From Sporosarcina ureae (GTDB lineage Bacteria; Bacillota; Bacilli; Bacillales_A; Planococcaceae): a stretch of 64,000 bases of DNA. Where the stretch lies: NCBI RefSeq assembly GCF_002082015.1, contig NZ_CP015109.1, positions 272,134 through 336,133 on the forward strand. The letters are read 5' to 3'. Positions 40,336 through 63,599 of the stretch are shown piece by piece; the stretch's first letter is position 1; the number at the start of each line of letters is the position of its first letter. Both the position numbers and the translations under genes were made by a program. Under the pieces are notes generated by a model. That model made no database searches, was not told the origin of the DNA, and saw nothing but the letters and a program-made list of their open reading frames with translations.

Positions 40336-41352
40336 CTATTCCCGCTCGAATGCGTCAATCTGTTCTGGCGTGCCAAGCAACAGCAATACGTCCTCCTCAT
40401 GCAATGGTCCCGACGAAGGTTCCCCGATCAGTTCGCCATTGCGCAAAATCCCGACTGGTAAAACACCGAATCTCTCTTGGATATCGAGTTCATGCAATGA
40501 ATGCCCCACAAAATGTGATTCGGCAACGATTTTCACTTCACTTATACTGAACTCAGCCTGACCTGGACTACGAAGTTGCCGAATGCGCGACATGTCGTAT
40601 GGTTCGAGAATGGACATTGCAAGCTCCCTGCCACCGATTGCGTACGGATTGACAACATGCTTCGCACCGGCTTTTTCCAATATTGTTTCAGAACCTTCTT
40701 GATTGGCGCGGGCTGCCACGTCGATGTCTTCATTCAAGTTTTTAACTGTCAAAGTAATGAATACATTATCCGCATCATCCTGCATAGCAGCAAATAACGC
40801 GCGGGCATGCAGTGCGCCGGCGCGTTCCAGCACTCTTTGTTCAGTCGGATTGTCCACGATCCGCAGTGTATCCGTTTCTAAATAATCTTCCATAAACTGG
40901 TGATCTTCGCTGATGAATATGATCGCAGCGTCCGGTTGCGACGCGCGGATTTCATCATACACTTGTTTCGCAAAATTGCCCGATCCGCAGATGATAATAT
41001 GATCGTTCAATTTCTTTACCTCTTTCTCCATCCGCTTCTCCCTCACTTTCTCCGGAAAATGCTTCTCAAGGAAATACGAAGCCGCTGTTCCGAAACCATA
41101 GCTGAACACGGTAATTCCCGCTGGCACGACGAATAACGTAAACAGCCTGCCACTTTCCGTCCGTGGGTAAATATCTCCATATCCGATTGTCAAAATTGAA
41201 ACAATCATCAACCAAAGTGCATCAAATAAACCGAGATTCTCGAAATGCATAAATCCGACAACACCGATCAAGACCAACAGAACGATCAATACTCCCATGA
41301 TCACAATTCTTCGATATCGTACGCTTATTTTAGCTATCGATCTTCCTTTCAT
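40336..41352 (-). CDS. Potassium channel with RCK (TrkA-N/TrkA-C) domains, YugO-like
   Basis: The 338 residues comprise two membrane helices around a pore loop with selectivity filter TIGYGD, an RCK-N Rossmann domain (IIICGSGNFAKQVYDEI) and a TrkA-C domain at the end. The layout is that of MthK/YugO channels gated by ligands or ions. AAAGGAG lies seven bases before the ATG. It is a single gene among SLH genes. Confidence 0.93.
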   Translation of the reverse strand: MKGRSIAKISVRYRRIVIMGVLIVLLVLIGVVGFMHFENLGLFDALWLMIVSILTIGYGDIYPRTESGRLFTLFVVPAGITVFSYGFGTAASYFLEKHFPEKVREKRMEKEVKKLNDHIIICGSGNFAKQVYDEIRASQPDAAIIFISEDHQFMEDYLETDTLRIVDNPTEQRVLERAGALHARALFAAMQDDADNVFITLTVKNLNEDIDVAARANQEGSETILEKAGAKHVVNPYAIGGRELAMSILEPYDMSRIRQLRSPGQAEFSISEVKIVAESHFVGHSLHELDIQERFGVLPVGILRNGELIGEPSSGPLHEEDVLLLLGTPEQIDAFERE

Positions 41353-43572: not shown

Positions 43573-44403
43573 ATGCTAACATTTAGGAAAATCCCTGCGA
43601 ATAATCCAATATTCATTCAAACTCGTGAAAAACATCGAGAATCTCTCATGCTTTTTCACGAATATGCAGAATATTTATCTTTACTTTCCGATAGAATGAA
43701 TAAATCCACTAGTGGAAAAGCAACTTCTTATGTAAATTACCTAGTGCGTCTAATCATTCTTTTTGAAGACAATTTTCCTACAGCCATTCATAGCCTCCTA
43801 TCGTTCGATACACTAAGAAAACTTGAAGTTGTAGTCACTGATGATCAATTCAAACAATACAACACTGCGGAAAGTAATTTCCCGAACGCTGCTTTCAAAT
43901 GTTATTTGTCATTTACCAATCATTATACGGTCTCACTCGATGACATAGGAGATATTTATACTGTTGAAAACTCTATACATACCGATGATGGTTATTCCAT
44001 CTCTGAACACCCTGTGCTAAGAGAAAATCAAGTAGAGTACAGAAACTTCTCTAATTATCCGAGAAGCATCGCAGAAAGCTTGGAAGCGAAAAAACGTAGT
44101 GACTGGAAATGCGAAGCCGACACCAACCATCAAACATTTATTAGCCAAGTTAATAAAGAATTCTACGTTGAAGCACATCATCTTGTTCCTATGGCAGCTC
44201 AGAGTCAGTTTCAATATACTTTGGACTTTGCGGACAATATTGTCTGTCTCTGTCCAAATTGTCACCGGAAAATCCACCACGCGATTGATCGGGAGAAGAG
44301 AGAATTAGTCGGAACGCTGTATGAAAGACGGGAAGATCGTTTACAAAGACGTGGTATTGAGGTTGAATTTAGGCAGTTACTAAGGTATTATGGAGTCATA
44401 TGA
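43573..44403 (+). CDS. HNH endonuclease
   Basis: The 276 residues end in an HNH nuclease: a zinc-type WKCEAD, the catalytic EAHHLVPM, then DNIVCLCPNCHRKIHHAI. The first 150 residues match no family I know and may set target or partner specificity. One cysteine of the usual first zinc pair appears to be Asp. AGGAGG precedes the ATG. It lies just upstream of the methyltransferase-McrBC genes and on the methyltransferase strand, so it is probably a restriction or other defence nuclease. Confidence 0.82.
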   Translation: MLTFRKIPANNPIFIQTREKHRESLMLFHEYAEYLSLLSDRMNKSTSGKATSYVNYLVRLIILFEDNFPTAIHSLLSFDTLRKLEVVVTDDQFKQYNTAESNFPNAAFKCYLSFTNHYTVSLDDIGDIYTVENSIHTDDGYSISEHPVLRENQVEYRNFSNYPRSIAESLEAKKRSDWKCEADTNHQTFISQVNKEFYVEAHHLVPMAAQSQFQYTLDFADNIVCLCPNCHRKIHHAIDREKRELVGTLYERREDRLQRRGIEVEFRQLLRYYGVI

Positions 44404-44598
44404 GTCATTTACTGTAAGCCAATTTAATAAATTAGCTACTAGAAGAAGTGAAAAAGTTGTTTGAAGTATTACATATAGTTTTAAACATCGGAAAGTTCAA
44501 TTTGCAACAAACAAATCTATTCAGCTAAGCAAGGAACTCATTAATAAATTTAAAAAAGTTTCGATAAAGAATTTCGAAATATATTAATTCATATTAAA

Positions 44599-44650
44599 AA
44601 AACACCTGGTTATAAACAAACATTAGTGTTTGTTTATAACCAGGTGTTTT
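44599..44650. terminator. Long perfect hairpin between HNH and methyltransferase genes
   Basis: A 24-bp perfect stem (arm ending GGTTATAAACAAACA) has a four-base loop, with A bases before and T bases after. It should terminate transcription in both directions. It also shares an AAACAAAC core with the hairpins at 20,041 and 24,934. Confidence 0.85.
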
Positions 44651-44666
44651 TAATTTCTAATTACTT

Positions 44667-44720
44667 TTGCTTTAATATTTTATTTGATATATAATTAATA
44701 TGACAATAAGAACATATGTT
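44667..44720 (+). promoter_or_regulatory. Promoter and possible operator of the cytosine methyltransferase
   Basis: TTGCTT (44667-44672) and TATAAT (44690-44695) are spaced by 17 bases. Near the expected start lies the palindrome AACATATGTT (44711-44720), a possible site for the HTH domain fused to the methyltransferase. About 140 bases of leader follow before the chosen ATG. Confidence 0.5.
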
Positions 44721-44858
44721 TCTTTCGTATTGATTACTAAGAAGTGAATAAATCTTTAGTTCAACTAATCTTTACCTTCACTATTTCATATGGTATTATT
44801 CGGAGTATATAAATTCTATATAAGTAGAATAAAACGGTCACCGAAAAGAGGGATGGTT

Positions 44859-46148
44859 ATGGCTTTTTCCTACAATGGTTTATGGAAATTGATTGCTCAA
44901 AAGGGGATGAATAAAACTACATTTAGGGATCAATGTAAAATTACTTCTGCTTCACTAGCAAGGCTTAGTAAAAATGAAAATGTAAGTATGGAAGTGTTAG
45001 AAAGAATCTGTAAACATTTAGAGTGCAGCATTGAAGAGATTATAGAATTTGTACCAGAGAGGGAAAAAAGAATGAATAATAATACATTAAAGTTTATAGA
45101 TTTGTTTGCAGGTATTGGTGGCTTTAGATTAGCAGGTGAAGAAAATGGTATGGAATGTGTCTTCTCGTCTGAAATAGACAAATTTGCTTGCGAGGTATAT
45201 AAATCTAATTTCAATGAATTACCTGAAGGTGATATTACTAAAATCGATGAAAAAGATATTCCTAATTTTGATGTACTTTTTGCTGGTTTCCCCTGTCAGC
45301 CATTTAGTTATGCGGGACAATTACAAGGTTTTGAAGACGAAATAAGAGGTACTTTGTTTTTTGATATTATTAGAATTATAAAAGAAAAACAACCGAAGAT
45401 GTTTTTACTAGAAAACGTTAAAGGGTTACGTTCTCACGATAAAGGTAAGACATTAAAAACGATATTAGAACATCTTAATAACCTAGGGTACCATGTTCAT
45501 TGGACTATTTTAAATAGTTTAGATTTCGGTGTCCCTCAATCCAGGGAAAGATGGTATTGTGTAGGGTTTAAAAAAGATGTGGCATTTGAATTCCCAACAC
45601 CTAATAATAATTCGGTTACTTTAAAAGAAATTATTAATCCGGATGACAATGAGAATTCTTCTTTAATTTTAAGTGATTTTGAACAACAGCGTATTAATCA
45701 TCATTTTAATGTCTGCCCTATTGAATCAGAAAATCAATTTAGAGTACAACATGATAATTCTAAATATGATCCGAATACCAAAAAGGGCAAATATGGTGTG
45801 TATTCTTATTTAAAGCCTGATCAAACCTTACGTTTTCATGTTGGTGATTATGCAAAGACTCAAATACAAGAGGCTTATTATTGTCATTTAGATAGCTTTA
45901 GCCCATCGATTATCGCAGCAAGAGCGCCAAAGTTATGGGATTTAGGTCGACATCTTTCGGTTAGAGAATGTGCACGTCTACAAGGGTTTCCTGATAGTTT
46001 CAAATTTGATAATTCACCAAGTCAAGCAAAAAAACAATTTGGTAATTCTGTAACGGTACCTGTTATTTCTTTAATTATAGAAAAAATGTTAATTGCCTAT
46101 AATGAAGATACTCCTCCTTTAAAGCAATTAGAGTTACTAGAAATGTAA
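44859..46148 (+). CDS. DNA cytosine-5 methyltransferase with N-terminal HTH domain
   Basis: About 429 residues. An N-terminal Cro-type HTH (about 5-65: LWKLIAQKGMNKTTFRDQCKI ... ICKHLECSIEEII) is fused to a full C5 methyltransferase with motif I DLFAGIGGFRL, motif IV GFPCQPFS (catalytic Cys), motif VI ENVKG, motif VIII QSRERWY and motif X GNSVTVPV. The ATG at 44859 has GAGGG six bases before it. The HTH may control its own promoter, as known for some C5 methyltransferases. The convergent mcrB and mcrC-like genes are the restriction part. The gene is much richer in A and T than its surroundings, a sign of transfer. Confidence 0.93.
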   Translation: MAFSYNGLWKLIAQKGMNKTTFRDQCKITSASLARLSKNENVSMEVLERICKHLECSIEEIIEFVPEREKRMNNNTLKFIDLFAGIGGFRLAGEENGMECVFSSEIDKFACEVYKSNFNELPEGDITKIDEKDIPNFDVLFAGFPCQPFSYAGQLQGFEDEIRGTLFFDIIRIIKEKQPKMFLLENVKGLRSHDKGKTLKTILEHLNNLGYHVHWTILNSLDFGVPQSRERWYCVGFKKDVAFEFPTPNNNSVTLKEIINPDDNENSSLILSDFEQQRINHHFNVCPIESENQFRVQHDNSKYDPNTKKGKYGVYSYLKPDQTLRFHVGDYAKTQIQEAYYCHLDSFSPSIIAARAPKLWDLGRHLSVRECARLQGFPDSFKFDNSPSQAKKQFGNSVTVPVISLIIEKMLIAYNEDTPPLKQLELLEM

Positions 46149-46192
46149 TGAATAAAACCCTCATCTAATTTAGATGGGGGTTTTATTCATTA
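46147..46192. terminator. Bidirectional terminator between methyltransferase and mcrC-like genes
   Basis: AATGAATAAAACCC-CATCTAA and its complement form a long stem that overlaps both stop-codon regions of the convergent genes. Confidence 0.88.
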
Positions 46193-47413
46193 GTCAGATA
46201 TATGAAGAGAATTCTTTACGGAATTTGAAAAAGTTTTGTTTCTTTCTCTAACAGGTTTAGAAAAGTCTATTGTGAAAGCGAAGAGAATAGTCTCCTTAAA
46301 ACTTTCAACGTTTATCTGTACTGGCTCTAAAGCTCCATAGTAAGGATAAACAAAACCGCCATATTCGGAACTTAGAGAATTGGAATAAAACAGCAATTGA
46401 TAAATGTCAGATAGATCTCCAATTTTACTATGATTTGATATATCTTTATTTTTCGCATCTAAAACCGCAAAAGCAGTATCTGAATCCTCGTGATAATTTA
46501 TAATAATATCCGGAGAATATGACTTAACATATTCTTCTGAACCAATTTTCAACTTTCCCATCGGTTTATCTTTTTTCCACTTGATTACTTTTACGCTCAA
46601 ATTATTCAAAAGAACATTTCGAGCATAGTTTTCAAACAGACTATTAGAATTCATTAAATAAGAAGAACTATTGACTTTATTGCTTTTTAAATTAATTTTT
46701 AAATTTCTTATTATTTTTTCAGCTAGTCCTAATACTATAGAATAATTCTCATTTTCGAAATGTGTTTTCATCTCAATATCTTGTAATAAATCATTCAAAT
46801 TTATCGCATCTACGTCTATATCTTCGAAATAAGAATTCACTAGTGAGTATAGTTTAATGTGAATTTGCTTAGTAGCTAAAACACGCACTTTATCTAGAGC
46901 GATCTTAATAATTTTATTATATGAAGTATTCAGAGTATGAATTTCATATTCAATTGGTATTTTATCTTGCAGTAAGTTTATAGGAGATATTTCTTCAACT
47001 AATATCTTTCCACGAATTTTATTTGTTGCTTCTTTAATTTTAACAAAATCGCCTTCAAGACCACTACTTACTAATTCATAAGCATTTTTCAAAAATAAAT
47101 CGATAAGGTTTTCTTGAACTCCAAAACTTTCATTTTCATCTAATTGGCTGCTTATCCGATCATCTAGTAATCCTTCATTATATAATTGCATCTCTAAATA
47201 ATGATTGGAAGTTAGTTTAGATATCCTAGGCTCAATATTAATAATTATATCTCTAATATTTATACTTCCGATAATATAGCTATCGAATATTATAGTTTCA
47301 CCTTGTAAGTATAATGGTAAATTTTTATTATCATTCAGAAAAATTTGGAATTCTTCGACATATGATTTTTCTAGTGTGAAAGAAGAATTTTCAGGAATAT
47401 TTATAACCCTCAT
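46190..47413 (-). CDS. McrC-like restriction subunit (PD-(D/E)xK nuclease)
   Basis: The 407 residues follow the McrC layout: an N-terminal beta domain (GETIIFDSYIIGSINIRDI) and a C-terminal PD-(D/E)xK nuclease with Asp in SPDIIINYH and Asp-x-Lys in AVLDAKNKD, then QLLFYS. It should be the cleavage subunit for the AAA+ protein upstream. It starts two bases after the McrB-like stop. In McrBC the target is methylated DNA; beside a methyltransferase, as in LlaJI, the pair instead cuts unmethylated sites. Which applies here is inference. Very AT-rich. Confidence 0.88.
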   Translation of the reverse strand: MRVINIPENSSFTLEKSYVEEFQIFLNDNKNLPLYLQGETIIFDSYIIGSINIRDIIINIEPRISKLTSNHYLEMQLYNEGLLDDRISSQLDENESFGVQENLIDLFLKNAYELVSSGLEGDFVKIKEATNKIRGKILVEEISPINLLQDKIPIEYEIHTLNTSYNKIIKIALDKVRVLATKQIHIKLYSLVNSYFEDIDVDAINLNDLLQDIEMKTHFENENYSIVLGLAEKIIRNLKINLKSNKVNSSSYLMNSNSLFENYARNVLLNNLSVKVIKWKKDKPMGKLKIGSEEYVKSYSPDIIINYHEDSDTAFAVLDAKNKDISNHSKIGDLSDIYQLLFYSNSLSSEYGGFVYPYYGALEPVQINVESFKETILFAFTIDFSKPVRERNKTFSNSVKNSLHISD

Positions 47414-47414
47414 T

Positions 47415-49031
47415 TTAATTTAAATATTCCTGTATTAAATTTATAAAGTCAGAAGATTCCTGAGCATATAACTTTTCACCAATTACACTCGTTATCAAAT
47501 CTATATTACCGTTACAGTAGTCTTCAATCAACGGAACGATGACGTAATTAAACAAATTTTCAAAGTCAGTCTTAGGCCATATAAATTTATCATATTCTGA
47601 TGAATAGACAAATTTCTTCATAAGGATCGCGTGTCCTATAACCATCTCTTTATTACTTAATGTTGTAAATAGATTTTGATTTATCTTTTCTAATAAACCA
47701 GCTATTGAAAACTCATTGCCTTCAATTATCACTTTATCTATTAGTAATCCTATATCTGGTTTGCAATATATTTGGTAGAAACGTCTTTTGATAGCATAAT
47801 CTATTCTACCGACAGTTCTATCGGTAGTGTTCATTGTTCCTATGATTTTTAGATTAGTTGGCAATTGATATTCTTTATCAATATTATTAAAAGTTAATCT
47901 CAGAGTCTCTCCTCTATCAAGTAGTTGTATCATTTCACCAAACACCTGGCTAACATTCGCCCTATTAATTTCTTCTATTATTAATAAATATTCTTGATCT
48001 TTATTTTTTTCTAACATCGCTTCTTCTATTAAAAGTATTAGTTCCCCTTTTTTATCCACTAAATTGCCCTGTTGAAGTATCTTCCCTCCAATAAAGTCTT
48101 GATATGAATATTGTGGATGAAATTGCATTCTTTTCACGACATCAAATTGTTCGGATAATTTTACTGCTAAAAATGACTTTGATGTACCAGGGGGGCCCAT
48201 TAAAATTGCTTGTTTTGATTGATTTAGTAGTTCTTTAAGAAATTCAGAACTTAAATTTTTTCCACTTCGAAATGAATTATTTTGACTATCAAATTGTATT
48301 AATGAATTTGGAATAGAGGGCACATTATCTTCACTTTTTTCAAACTTCTCTAGCCAATTTGGCTGATCACTATGATTGCCAATTAGAGACCGAATGAAAT
48401 GTGAAGCAACTCTTTCATTAGTGTATTTTACATTAATTTCATGACTCATGCTAAAAAGTATAGTTTTTTCCTCTTCAGTTATATTGAAGTAATTGTAAAA
48501 ATTAGAAATTATATTTGAAAGAGGAACTTCATATTCAAATCCATTAAACCTTACCCCCCAAAGACTAAGAGCTTCTAATGGTACTTTATCATTAGTTGAT
48601 TTAAAGAAGTCTAAATAATTATGTTTTAATTTAATCAAATTCGCATTGTCTGGATCACTAGTAACAATACTTTTCCATTGTCTACCTCCACCAGTGACAT
48701 TATTAATTAAACGTGCTGTTGCCCATGTTTGCATATTTTCAGTTGGATTTTTTCCTTTTTTACCCCACTCATCCATTGTCAAAGGATTTATAAAATTATA
48801 CTTTTCTTTTATATATTTATCTGAGACAAATAAATATGATAGTTGTCTAGTCGCTTCAAACAGCTTAGACTTAATTGCTTCAGAAGACAATTCGAGATAG
48901 TCATGTGTGGTTAATCCTGCATGTTTCAATATTAAGAGAGTAAATAACTCACTCCCATTTTTATAATTTGTATTTGATAGGACATCATATGAAGTAGATA
49001 TAGTATCTTGATGTAAAAACTTTTTACTCAT
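47415..49031 (-). CDS. McrB-like AAA+ restriction subunit
   Basis: The 538 residues have an N-terminal region of about 270 residues that probably recognises DNA and an AAA_5 motor: Walker A GPPGTSKSF, Walker B LLIIEEINRANVSQVFGE, then GTMNTTDRTVGRIDYAIKRRF with sensor and arginine finger. McrB proteins use GTP to translocate DNA and drive McrC cleavage. GGAGA precedes the ATG. It is the first gene of the mcrB-mcrC operon, convergent with the methyltransferase. A perfect palindrome lies 135 bases upstream. Very AT-rich. Confidence 0.9.
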   Translation of the reverse strand: MSKKFLHQDTISTSYDVLSNTNYKNGSELFTLLILKHAGLTTHDYLELSSEAIKSKLFEATRQLSYLFVSDKYIKEKYNFINPLTMDEWGKKGKNPTENMQTWATARLINNVTGGGRQWKSIVTSDPDNANLIKLKHNYLDFFKSTNDKVPLEALSLWGVRFNGFEYEVPLSNIISNFYNYFNITEEEKTILFSMSHEINVKYTNERVASHFIRSLIGNHSDQPNWLEKFEKSEDNVPSIPNSLIQFDSQNNSFRSGKNLSSEFLKELLNQSKQAILMGPPGTSKSFLAVKLSEQFDVVKRMQFHPQYSYQDFIGGKILQQGNLVDKKGELILLIEEAMLEKNKDQEYLLIIEEINRANVSQVFGEMIQLLDRGETLRLTFNNIDKEYQLPTNLKIIGTMNTTDRTVGRIDYAIKRRFYQIYCKPDIGLLIDKVIIEGNEFSIAGLLEKINQNLFTTLSNKEMVIGHAILMKKFVYSSEYDKFIWPKTDFENLFNYVIVPLIEDYCNGNIDLITSVIGEKLYAQESSDFINLIQEYLN

Positions 49032-53982: not shown

Positions 53983-54777
53983 ATGTTGCAATGGATTTCG
54001 GAACAGCTAACACTTACCGGCACACCGCTTGAGCAGATCAGCCAGATTCAGAAGCTTTTCGCCGAGCAATTCGAATTTGAAAACCTGGATGTCTTGTTAG
54101 CGAATGAGGAACCTCTCACGGAGCAATATGTTCAAGATAAAATGATGAAACAAGGACGCGGCGGGTTGTGCTATGAACTCAATGGTTTGCTGTATATCGT
54201 ACTTAGAGATTTAGGCTTCTCCGTACAACTCGCCGCTGGCACTGTTTGGGCACCACCTCCGAAAGACAGCTATGTCATGGACCGAACACATGTCGTGAAC
54301 TTGCTTAAACACGAAGATACACTGTACTTGGTCGACAGTGGTTTCGGAAACAACCTCGTCATGCAGCCGGTCCCGTTAGATGGGGAACCTGTCACTTCAC
54401 CTGCCGGCACATTTCGGTTTCGGACCGAAACGACTGAAAAAGGCACGATGGTATTTGAGCAATTGAAAGACAACAACTGGGAACTTCGCTATAGTCTCTA
54501 TCCCGATTCAGTTGACTGGGTGCACTTGGATCACGTGAAACAGCAAATCCACCACAGCCCCGAGTCTTCATTCAATAAAGCGCTACTCATTGCTAAGTTA
54601 ACAGACGATAGCACGTACTCGATTAATGACGACCGTTATCATCGCAAGTTTAGTGGCGAGGAAGAAACTCTAACGTTCCAAGATCGTAGTGAACTACTTG
54701 AACAAGTGAGACAGCATGCGGCTCCAGCTGTGTACGAAGCGACGATGAATTATATTAATCAGCAAAAATCCTCTTAA
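53983..54777 (+). CDS. Arylamine N-acetyltransferase
   Basis: The 264 residues match bacterial NAT enzymes in length. The catalytic triad is visible: Cys in RGGLCYELNG, His in RTHVVNLL and Asp in YLVDSGFGNN. It transfers acetyl from acetyl-CoA to arylamines or hydrazines. AGGATGG lies seven bases before the ATG. It is flanked on both sides by palindromic repeats. Confidence 0.93.
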   Translation: MLQWISEQLTLTGTPLEQISQIQKLFAEQFEFENLDVLLANEEPLTEQYVQDKMMKQGRGGLCYELNGLLYIVLRDLGFSVQLAAGTVWAPPPKDSYVMDRTHVVNLLKHEDTLYLVDSGFGNNLVMQPVPLDGEPVTSPAGTFRFRTETTEKGTMVFEQLKDNNWELRYSLYPDSVDWVHLDHVKQQIHHSPESSFNKALLIAKLTDDSTYSINDDRYHRKFSGEEETLTFQDRSELLEQVRQHAAPAVYEATMNYINQQKSS

Positions 54778-55680: not shown

Positions 55681-57216
55681 TTACACTTTGAGAGATCCCT
55701 TAAGTGCCCACTCCATACGACTAAGCAACATATTTCTAGTTAATTCACCTGTCATATTAAATACTTGTAAGTTAAAGATTGGCTGTTTCTGATCAGAAAA
55801 TGTTTGCCATTGTTCAGCTACATATTTTAAGTCCGTCGCCTTTATCAAAGCAACATCGGTATCTTCCTCTGAGAAAGCTTTCAACTTTTGTGCCTGCGCT
55901 ATTGCCTCTTTTGTATAATCTTGAACTATAATTAAAAATAGTGTTACCCTCATTTTTTCCGAACGTATATACCTTAAAAACTGATTGAAATGATTTTCCG
56001 GGAAATTGTATGCTTCTTCAGTACTTTTATTGTCCCATAAGACTACTTCTTGTTTACTAAATTGCAATTTTCCATCCGCATGCCTAGTGCCTTCCATTGC
56101 TAAAACGTCAATACCTAATTTCCGTTCAAAAATATAGCGTGTAGCTTCTTCAAAGTAATTATCTACTTCAATATCTTTATCAATTACTTTATTCACTCGA
56201 AGTGATTTATAATCTCTCGCTGCCAATTCTTCGTAGAAGTCGAACAGCCTAGACCTATGATCAGTTGGGTCTGAAGAGGTTGGAGAAGAAAGCATCTCAT
56301 AGTAATCGATAATATTTTGGATCTTCTCCTTCTTCGTACCACTAATTTTAGTACCTTCGAGCTTTCTCAATATATCCGCTAATTCTTTTGTACTGAATAT
56401 TTTCAAAGCCGTTGAGGGTAAGATATTATGCTTTATTATTCTTTCTACTAATGCTTCTTTCACACCGCTTACATTAAACTCTAGCTGATGTAAGATTTCT
56501 CTTAACTGAGTGACACTCAAATCATTTAGTAGTGTCTCATAAACTTCATTTCTAAGTTCGCCACCCATTTCGTACCGTAAAATGCGTGCAATATCTTTTG
56601 GTATAATATAATATGACGTGTCATCCCTAAAACGCAATATCAATCCTCGCGTCTGTAGATTAATCAAAGAACGACTAATTTGTTGATGTGTATGCAGGAC
56701 ATTGTCTTTTTGAGGGAATCTCCCAATTTTACTCTCTATTAAATAGTGGTCTCTCTTAGTTAAATCAAGTTCTTTCCTCAATACATTTAAGATATTAATT
56801 TCATGCTCATTAAGTGATTCATCCTTTTTCCAAGCTTCATCGAGAACAGCACTATAAATTCTGTTGACGTCTTGTGGAATGAATCTATTCATATAGTTAT
56901 CATCGTTACTCTGTTTTAATATCGCATTTTCAATATCTTCTACTTCCTTATACAGATTAGCCTCACTTAGTAAGTAGCCTTCTTTTTCCATCAGTGCCAT
57001 AAGTATTAATTCATTCAAGAGGGCGAGATCTCTAGGATCACGACTAAAATCTAAATAGTTTTTTACTCTTTCTTTGTTTTGAAATTCATCAATGTTTTTT
57101 AGAACTAACTCTCGCATTTCCTCTTCGGTCTCCAGATGTACATCCTTTAAAAAACTATCAACTATCCTTCCTAAGTAGAGCTTTGTCATCTTAGGTAATA
57201 TATCTTCTAAATACAT
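55681..57216 (-). CDS. Putative SAP-domain nuclease with FokI-like PD-(D/E)xK cleavage domain
   Basis: About 511 residues. The N-terminal 220 are helical with winged-helix-like parts (QISRSLINLQTRGLILRF). Two SAP-like helix pairs follow at about 231-265 (LSVTQLREILHQLEFNVSG) and 273-309 (FSTKELADILRKLEGTKISG). The C terminus resembles the FokI cleavage domain: Asp381 (HADGKL), Asp395-x-Lys397 (VVLWDNKS), YNFP at 403-406, then a hydrophobic strand and a long helix. It should bind DNA through the SAP repeats and cut it. There is no methyltransferase beside it. The ATG at 57216 has GAGG nine bases before it. The function as defence or repair enzyme is inference. Confidence 0.72.
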   Translation of the reverse strand: MYLEDILPKMTKLYLGRIVDSFLKDVHLETEEEMRELVLKNIDEFQNKERVKNYLDFSRDPRDLALLNELILMALMEKEGYLLSEANLYKEVEDIENAILKQSNDDNYMNRFIPQDVNRIYSAVLDEAWKKDESLNEHEINILNVLRKELDLTKRDHYLIESKIGRFPQKDNVLHTHQQISRSLINLQTRGLILRFRDDTSYYIIPKDIARILRYEMGGELRNEVYETLLNDLSVTQLREILHQLEFNVSGVKEALVERIIKHNILPSTALKIFSTKELADILRKLEGTKISGTKKEKIQNIIDYYEMLSSPTSSDPTDHRSRLFDFYEELAARDYKSLRVNKVIDKDIEVDNYFEEATRYIFERKLGIDVLAMEGTRHADGKLQFSKQEVVLWDNKSTEEAYNFPENHFNQFLRYIRSEKMRVTLFLIIVQDYTKEAIAQAQKLKAFSEEDTDVALIKATDLKYVAEQWQTFSDQKQPIFNLQVFNMTGELTRNMLLSRMEWALKGSLKV

Positions 57217-57657
57217 AAAATATCGCCTCATTTCTATTTATTTAATAGTTAATAAATATTAAGATTTGCATTTTACTATATTAATTTACTTCATGGTTAC
57301 AATTGGACTATTCCTTTAGTAACAGCATAACCTTTTATTTACAAAATATCAAAGCTCATTTACTCATTATTCGGATATATTGGGTATTAAAAGATATATT
57401 TCAGAAATAAATTAAATTTACACATCATAATAGGCAATCATCCAACTACAATTTCCTACAAACCTGTTATTTAAATCGGCTGAATACTAGGATTAAAATA
57501 ATATAGACTTCTGAATGATACGTGGAGATAATTCAATTCGTTCGTATAATGCTACTTGCAGTCAATGCTATATCGGTAATTACTTTAACTTTTAATTATT
57601 TCCTCACCTCCCTCTACATTTACCAACAAAAAACCTTTCAATTAAACAATCCATCCC
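57217..57657. other. Gap between nuclease and germination operon
   Basis: This AT-rich stretch of about 440 bases between two divergent genes holds no frame with a ribosome site and no clear hairpin. It must contain the promoter of the SAP-FokI-like gene on its left side. Confidence 0.4.
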
Positions 57658-62268: not shown

Positions 62269-63492
62269 TTACGATTTCTGAGCTGGTAGTGCGGACTCAT
62301 AATCGTAAAGAATGCCATGCGTCAGTAACTGGAATGTCACTTTCAGAAACTTATTGATACAGGCGATGATCGCAACCTTATGAGGCTTCCTCTGAGGTTG
62401 CTTTTTTAGTTTGTAGTAATGGTCTACAAAATGATTCGTCTTTCCTTTAGCCATAAGCATAGCGCATATCATAAAATATAAAATCTTCCGCAGATGTTTG
62501 TTTCCTCTTTTATTAATACGATCTCTATATTGTGTATTCCCCGACTGATATCGCATGATATCGATGCCTGCGTAAGCGTTCAATTGTTTCGCATTCTTAA
62601 AGCGGCGAACATCTCCAATTTCTCCGATTAATCGGCATGCCGTCGAATCGCCTATACCCGGTATCGAGCGGTAGACAAGATATTCTTTTCGGCCTTCTGA
62701 TAACTCTGTCATTTGTTTCACCAGTGTATCTTTCTTCTCCATCAAATCTGCAATTCGGGACGCGTAATCACGAACCTGGTCGCATCGAATATCATTCGGT
62801 TTGGTGGCTGGATAGCTGTTTCGCGCTGCTTCCAATAGAACGGATGCTTTCGCTTCGGCCCGTGTCAACGAAAGGTTCTTTCTTGTATTAGCTTTTAAAC
62901 GATTCTTAATGACCGTCTTTGAATGATCCAGTAAAAGTGCAGGATGCGGATAGAGCTGAACAATATTTAAAAACAGAGCTGAACTTGGTGTAATAAGCTT
63001 TTCTAATTCTGGAAAACTTAGATGTAGAATCGAATGCATTCTGCTTTTCAGTAAAATCATTTCTTCATCGACTTCATCGTAATAACGCGTCATCGCACGC
63101 ATCTGTTCATAATAATCATCTTGGATATATGTATTTTTACGCTCCACTTGAAAATGAGTTTTCGCAAGTTCATGGGCATCGCTAAGATCCGTTTTGTGCC
63201 GTCGCATCTTCGCCATCTGTAAATTGGCTTCAAGTGGATTCATGCGGCAATATGCATAGCCAGAATCTTTTAGAAATGCTTCGACAGGTTTTGAATAAAC
63301 GCCGGTTGCTTCAAATACGATATCTGGCGCCCGTCCATCTACCTTCGTGATCTCTGCCATTCGTTTGTGTAATCGTTCAAATTCAGCACGTGTATGATGT
63401 AATTCGCCTTCGAATTCACATTGGCGATAACCATCATAAATCGCAATAGTACTTTTTCCTTTACTCACATCTAAAGCTACGACATGTTTCAT
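62269..63492 (-). mobile_element. IS110-family transposase (recombinase)
   Basis: About 407 residues, intact. The N-terminal RuvC-like DEDD domain shows Asp in VVALDVSKGKS, Glu in FEATGVYS and the Asp pair in HKTDLSDAHEL. A coiled middle follows, then the Tnp_20 domain with PGIGDSTACRLIGEIGDVRRF, the reactive-serine region around YAGIDIMRYQSGNTQ, and RGNKHLRKIL. The ATG at 63492 has GAAGGAG eight bases before it. Members insert through a structured bridge RNA made from a noncoding end; a fitting structure lies upstream. The exact ends of the element were not found by eye. Being intact, it may be active. Confidence 0.9.
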
Positions 63493-63599
63493 GTTCATAT
63501 CTCCTTCTTCACCAATCTTAGAAGCCTTCACAAACCTTATCGATTCCACTTTCTTATACACGATCTCTTTGGACCCAACATACTAAACTGATTCATATA

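Follow-up and report, generated by a model that had tools for sequence, protein, structure and literature searches.

The gene described here lies on the minus strand of a 64,000-nucleotide stretch of the Sporosarcina ureae chromosome (the whole of this stretch is referred to as the window), in a host genome of 3.41 Mb recovered as a single contig. Translation from the ATG at 57216 yields a protein of 511 amino acids; an alternative start is found five codons upstream, at 57231, and the start giving 511 residues is also that of most homologues. The gene has a G+C content of 34.0%, compared with 39.0% for the window. The following features were assigned:

55681..57216, minus strand: SAP-FokI-type nuclease gene, 511 amino acids, stop codon included
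57226..57229, minus strand: GAGG, likely ribosome-binding site judged from the sequence, 9 nt before the ATG at 57216
56722..57216, minus strand: N-terminal region, residues 1-165, weakly TerB-like, a lead only
56542..56721, minus strand: winged-helix-like stretch, residues 166-225, a lead only (insignificant MarR match)
56428..56529, minus strand: SAP repeat 1, residues 230-263 (Pfam SAP, E 2.6e-8)
56299..56388, minus strand: SAP repeat 2, residues 277-306 (SAP_new25, E 0.048, weak in this protein)
55684..56244, minus strand: predicted C-terminal FokI-type PD-(D/E)xK domain, residues 325-511, outer limits approximate (Pfam FokI_cleav_dom and hhalign to FokI)
56026..56076, minus strand: predicted active site, Asp381, Asp395 and Lys397 (80 of 80 aligned rows; alignment to FokI)

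The gene is flanked by an arylamine N-acetyltransferase gene (53983-54777, plus strand) on one side and by a gerA-type germination operon (from 57760, plus strand) on the other, both of them unrelated to it. An IS110-family transposase gene (62272-63561, minus strand) adjoins the germination operon. The initial annotation had stated that no methyltransferase or other restriction gene stands beside the nuclease gene. This is correct for the immediate neighbours but not for the wider window, where a restriction cluster, which we take to be perhaps LlaJI-like, occupies 43573-49031, at a distance of 6.7 to 12.1 kb. It comprises genes for an HNH nuclease, an m5C methyltransferase (9.5 kb from the nuclease gene, among the McrBC-like genes), and McrC-like and McrB-like AAA proteins. 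Comparison of the nuclease gene with six relatives gave dN values of 0.07 to 0.26; dS was not computable in five of the six comparisons, where it was taken as saturated, and dN/dS was 0.056 in the sixth. The gene is thus real and under purifying selection, and a spurious open reading frame is ruled out by this selection and by the existence of a family.

The proposal of two SAP-like repeats and a C-terminal FokI-like domain within one 511-residue protein was borne out, albeit with a weak second repeat and with a FokI match that falls under the cutoff in the window protein. Pfam identifies a SAP domain with 33.7 bits, above the cutoff of 23.9 bits, whereas FokI_cleav_dom matches residues 346 to 424 with an E value of 6.4e-4 and 19.6 bits, below its cutoff of 25 bits. 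Among 53 aligned members of the family, matches at an E value of ≤0.1 were obtained to SAP in 45, to SAP_new25 in 39 and to FokI_cleav_dom in 34 (best E value, 2.3e-8; the other 19 had no FokI match). In a further scan of ten proteins, the best SAP match falls on the second repeat in four relatives (L080, L050, L063 and L081), and a member on a viral contig (L095) has two SAP stretches. In that scan, PF02037 found no match in L052, L088, the haloarchaeal protein P0001 or the sister protein L113, and FokI_cleav_dom reached an E value of ≤0.5 only in L045 and L063. Support for the predicted SAP and FokI domains therefore comes from the family as a whole and not from every single protein.

The N-terminal parts are less clear, and their TerB-like and winged-helix-like character is offered as leads only. 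The TerB model matched 7 of the 53 members (best E value, 1.6e-3) and the ENT model 11 (best E value, 3.4e-3), with no Pfam match to either in the window protein itself. Neither the window protein nor the family profile gave a significant match in the PDB; the top match of the profile was a MarR regulator at profile positions 180 to 256. Two prolines, P168 and P206, are conserved in 80 of 80 alignment rows.

The motifs named in the initial annotation were located at residues 379 (HADG), 394 (WDNK) and 403 (YNFP). Its active-site residues D395 and K397 align with catalytic residues of FokI, but the first catalytic aspartate, Asp381, had been missed; together, Asp381, Asp395 and Lys397 occupy the positions of the FokI catalytic residues (PD...D-T-K), which we take to be D450, D467 and K469. 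In the hhalign comparison of the family with the FokI cleavage domain (E value, 0.0064), GTRHADGK...VVLWDNKSTEEAYNF stands opposite GSRKPDGA...GVIVDTKAYSGGYNL. In an alignment of the window protein with 79 relatives (L012, L024, L028, L032, L033, L046 and L049 were omitted because they lack the nuclease part or are duplicates, broken or incomplete), D381, G382, G376, W394, D395, N396, K397, Y416, F427 and W470 are invariant in all 80 rows. Since every locus had been selected with one or both of two patterns (one around FE-x-AT, the other around WDNK), conservation at those positions is biased; D381, G382, G376, Y416, F427 and W470 lie outside both patterns. The viral contig member L095, which is not among the 80 rows, has D-C-K instead of D-N-K.

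The family and FokI, a type IIS enzyme (cleavage domain PF09254), thus share the order and near spacing of PD...D-x-K, followed by a YN(L/F)P motif, but they differ in several respects. The family has D-N-K where FokI has D-T-K, and in place of the FokI recognition domains, for which the window protein gave no Pfam match at an E value of ≤1, it has SAP repeats and another N-terminal part. A type IIS restriction-modification system was rejected, as there are no recognition domains within the protein and no methyltransferase beside the window gene, a lack that also distinguishes the family gene from FokI. Against the FokI-type assignment itself stand the score of the window protein, the family members without a match, the hhalign probability of only 5.9%, and the lack of any FokI chain among PDB matches of the family profile at an E value of ≤10.

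A genome scan with a six-sequence alignment gave 148 pattern matches. Of these, 108 proved to be relatives, and 80 were kept. Most relatives are proteins of about 510 residues with the same build as the window protein, and their record labels include Bacillota, Gemmatimonadota, Actinomycetota (Acidimicrobiia), Pseudomonadota, Chloroflexota, Armatimonadota, Thermoplasmatota, Lentisphaerota, Kiritimatiellota, Verrucomicrobiota and Fermentibacterota. We have doubts about the label Pseudomonadota: a protein that carries it has the same sequence as two Gemmatimonadota proteins, and the genome of L048 (label Gammaproteobacteria) turns up within the phylum of the Gemmatimonadetes MAG G809. On the tree, the window protein is closest to L019 (90% identity) from a Sporosarcina MAG, whose downstream region has an ABC-transporter pair in common with the window.

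The distribution is patchy, even within one genus and one class. Only the host genome itself carries the family among 41 related genomes (none of the 40 others), and the counts, again including the host genome, were 2 of 398 genomes at the class level and 4 of 398 at the phylum level, one of these four being the nuclease-less L009. Elsewhere, with the genome at the centre of each search likewise counted, matches were found in 10 of 288 genomes in the phylum of G801 (six with full-length family members) and in 5 of 296 genomes of the class to which G802 belongs (four with full-length members). For the phylum of G809, the figure was 12 of 240 genomes; one of these carries two copies, and two of the matches are short or distant. 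Several copies appear to be broken or short: L028 and L049 are split into two ORFs, L032 is truncated, and the copy in Sporosarcina cascadiensis is apparently frame-broken.

Family copies also occur on mobile elements. One is carried by the Halorubrum provirus Humcor1, a siphovirus provirus described as induced in the text available of its report (PMC7911831). Another is found on a haloarchaeal plasmid, from Natrinema, where an integrase precedes it by 2.9 kb with an N6-methylase and helicase gene past the integrase, and L095 is a viral metagenome contig from IMG/VR. A viral scan using the single window protein found no relative, and PHROGs gave the window protein only matches with an E value of >1. 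Within 1508-5934 of L095, the family member lies near a gene that resembles, by eye, a DnaQ-type exonuclease with a BRCT end.

The homologues examined are not tied to one known system, as the initial annotation had left to be checked: they have no single known restriction or repair partner in common, most members have no constant partner, and the surroundings of most loci, judged by eye, consist of household genes. We scanned 143 of 147 selected neighbour proteins, omitting two encoded next to L012 and two fragments adjacent to L028 and L032, and cutting long proteins to 550 amino acids. The largest families among these nearest neighbours were Ion_trans (5 proteins) and then Ion_trans_2 (4 proteins, tied with two oxidoreductase models); no repair family was among the 25 most frequent of 172 families; and the commonest PADLOC family matched only 3 of the 143, among the best 25 of 200 families, generic models included. 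Apart from the channel, clustering of recurrent neighbours gave a scattered cluster of distant ABC transporters, a cluster of short-chain dehydrogenases, and further small clusters with three or four loci each; several of the clusters represent synteny of close relatives. Individual loci do have defence-type genes: a DRT-type reverse transcriptase gene (UG21 model, E 2e-118) lies 51 bp downstream of the member in L043 (9570-11486), and an AbiEii gene is found near L088.

A voltage-gated channel gene lies within about 520 bp of the nuclease gene in 9 of 90 loci, namely, L034, L035, L045, L082, L080, L063, L081 and L084, together with the provirus copy L004 (recorded a second time as L005). All nine channels score above the Pfam Ion_trans cutoff, and seven also have the K+ pore (Ion_trans_2); the sequences of L081 and L084 end at a contig edge before the pore, so that K+ selectivity is not visible there. 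A channel profile built without these two still finds both (E values, 1.7e-5 and 1.4e-8), as well as the TrkA-type channel of the window genome, and a pore profile that includes this TrkA-type channel gave seven matches in the 1.11 Mb of flanks of the 90 loci, all of them within 516 bp of the nuclease gene. The 600-bp zone around the gene makes up only 9.5% of the flank scanned. In L063, the channel gene overlaps the longest nuclease ORF and ends about 50 bp before the aligned start, and in Humcor1 it lies on the opposite strand with one gene intervening.

Across 22 genomes or records (about 70 Mb, selected to include all nine linked loci), Ion_trans_2 matched 45 times; at this base rate, we would expect about 0.1 to 0.2 channel neighbours by chance, in a test that was suggested by the data itself and on 90 loci that include near-copies. 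A tree of 77 rows requires no fewer than four changes to account for the nine linked rows, which suggests perhaps four independent events. A search of 296 Acidimicrobiia-class genomes found a channel beside 4 of 4 full-length members, but these are L034, L035, L045 and L082, already among the nine. The flanks scanned in the other 81 loci, some on cut contigs, hold no channel, and these loci include four from the Verrucomicrobiota search. No channel was found within the flanks (≤1.5 kb) of members from the Gemmatimonadota-phylum search, most of which were already among the 90, with L138 and L139 apparently new. The window gene also has no channel beside it; the sole Ion_trans_2 match of its genome is the TrkA-type channel at 40339-41352, 14 kb away.

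Relatives of the N-terminal and SAP region occur with other partners. In genome G584, three overlapping genes (L012, 9248-14135) encode a SAP protein without nuclease, a BrxD/SngB-like ATPase (E values, 9e-78 and 2e-61, respectively) and a BrxHI/SngC-like helicase (8e-172 and 7e-127). The first product, of 512 amino acids, is related to residues 120 to 307 of the window protein (29% identity; E value, 2.6e-18, in a search of fetched ORFs only), and its gene overlaps the ATPase gene by 4 bases; the ATPase gene in turn overlaps the helicase gene. Shango is described as an anti-phage system that combines a TerB-like protein with an ATPase and a helicase (PMC10250203), and BrxD-BrxHI as a linked pair in type 2 BREX (PMC12839542). 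The G584 genes resemble Shango in operon position and not through SngA homology: the SngA model has no match in G584, and three SngA-model proteins, themselves beside BrxD- and BrxHI-like genes, have no similarity to the SAP-FokI family profile. (The model also has no match in G000, where no control match was obtained either, and it has matches in 4 of 295 other genomes.) On these sequence comparisons, the trio is possibly a Shango-like variant with an unrelated first subunit. Membership of the SAP-FokI family in Shango was rejected on the same absence of an SngA match and of similarity to SngA-model proteins. Further, no ATPase and helicase partners of the SngABC type stand beside the window gene, and the relative linked to the BrxD-BrxHI pair in G584 has no nuclease domain, unlike the window protein.

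Three sister proteins of 613 to 620 amino acids (L111, 4331-6181; L112, 5755-7596; L113, 5841-7703) align with the N-terminal and SAP region of the family and keep its order, but they are Mrr-like, with D...E-C-K as the active site where the family has D...D-N-K. L113, the one sister protein scanned, matches Mrr_cat with an E value of 2.4e-3, below the cutoff. The three have no evident partner gene. Together with the nuclease-less relative, they suggest that the N-terminal and SAP part is a module used with more than one effector.

The statement that no system of this build has been described agrees with our searches. The window protein matched none of the families of PADLOC-DB 2.0.0 and no NCBIfam model at an E value of ≤10, and no SAP-FokI or nuclease-K+ channel system is described in the accessible text of the open-licence PMC papers searched. 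Among the closest known systems are the winged-helix fusion type IV enzymes, which are likewise single-chain nucleases with DNA-binding parts and no methyltransferase; in the part of that report available, the fusions covered are of DpnI-type PD-(D/E)XK, HNH, GIY-YIG and PLD nucleases, and FokI is named solely for its own winged helix (PMC11037411). The family, present in many bacteria, in some archaea and in their viruses, is thus apparently undescribed.

We suggest, with confidence that is about evenly balanced, that the family protein is a single-protein DNA-targeting endonuclease, most likely used against invading or competing DNA. Binding to DNA would fall to the N-terminal, winged-helix-like and SAP parts, which may also detect a particular structure, a modification or a partner, and the C-terminal domain, if it has the FokI-type fold, would cut once two copies meet on one DNA. 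In cells, the protein could serve as a lone type-IV-like or sensor-type restriction factor against foreign DNA, whereas proviruses and plasmids may deploy the nuclease against rivals. The active-site residues kept in all 80 rows, the FokI_cleav_dom matches across the family and the IMG/VR copy are consistent with this reading, as are the defence genes close by in some loci (the L043 reverse transcriptase, AbiEii near L088 and the McrBC-like cluster of the window) and the relative heading a BrxD-BrxHI operon. The household setting of most loci and the low count of the commonest PADLOC family among neighbours argue against it, as does the lack of a methyltransferase beside the gene by which self DNA might be spared.

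SAP domains are found in repair proteins such as Ku, and a nuclease of DNA repair or recombination, in which the SAP repeats would bring the protein to damaged or branched DNA for the FokI-type domain to trim or cut, would also fit purifying selection and the predominance of household neighbours. We nevertheless regard this as unlikely: the family is very patchy within one genus and class, a provirus, a plasmid and a viral contig each carry a copy, the copy in S. cascadiensis is apparently frame-broken, and no repair family is among the most frequent neighbour families. Because of the patchiness, the provirus and plasmid copies and the Shango-like relative, we favour conflict with foreign DNA over housekeeping repair. 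A modification-dependent (type IV) enzyme, whose winged-helix-like part would read a modified base while the FokI-type domain cuts nearby, would account for a single protein without methyltransferase and has precedent in the winged-helix fusions of other nuclease folds (PMC11037411, in the part available). It seems rather improbable, given that the winged helix depends on the insignificant MarR match (E value, 0.066) and that no known base-reading domain is among the Pfam matches of the window protein.

The channel neighbour raises a further possibility, that of a two-gene system in which the DNA part would sense or cut foreign DNA and the voltage-gated K+ channel would shift the membrane potential, so that cell arrest or death protects. 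In solo members such as that of the window, the channel might then have been lost, or its part might be taken by one encoded elsewhere. The close linkage in four tree lineages, the absence of any other pore-bearing channel from the flanks and the fully linked Acidimicrobiia-class members (the same loci as among the nine) speak for it. The 81 loci and the Gemmatimonadota-phylum members without a channel, the two channels cut before the pore, the arrangement in Humcor1 and the distant TrkA-type channel of the window genome speak against it, and we consider it a doubtful explanation for the family. Equally doubtful is the bolder version, a new kind of immune module in which a SAP-guided FokI-type nuclease would be coupled to the channel in several lineages and in the haloarchaeal provirus, with lone copies as a stripped-down form; recognising foreign DNA would then lead to cutting and to an altered membrane potential alike.

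FokI-type cleavage domains underlie the ZFN and TALEN tools, and, to our knowledge, few natural pairings of such domains with other DNA-binding parts have been described. A widespread single-gene SAP-FokI pairing, as favoured here, would supply new nucleases and might also be a previously undescribed single-gene defence. We know of no described prokaryotic system that links DNA recognition with membrane potential; the channel neighbour, if functional, would tie the two together. As a minor observation, a 1003-residue metallophosphatase (L051, 9491-12502), which had no PADLOC match, is encoded 23 bp downstream of a family member and has a weak match to a STAND/helicase-like NTPase.
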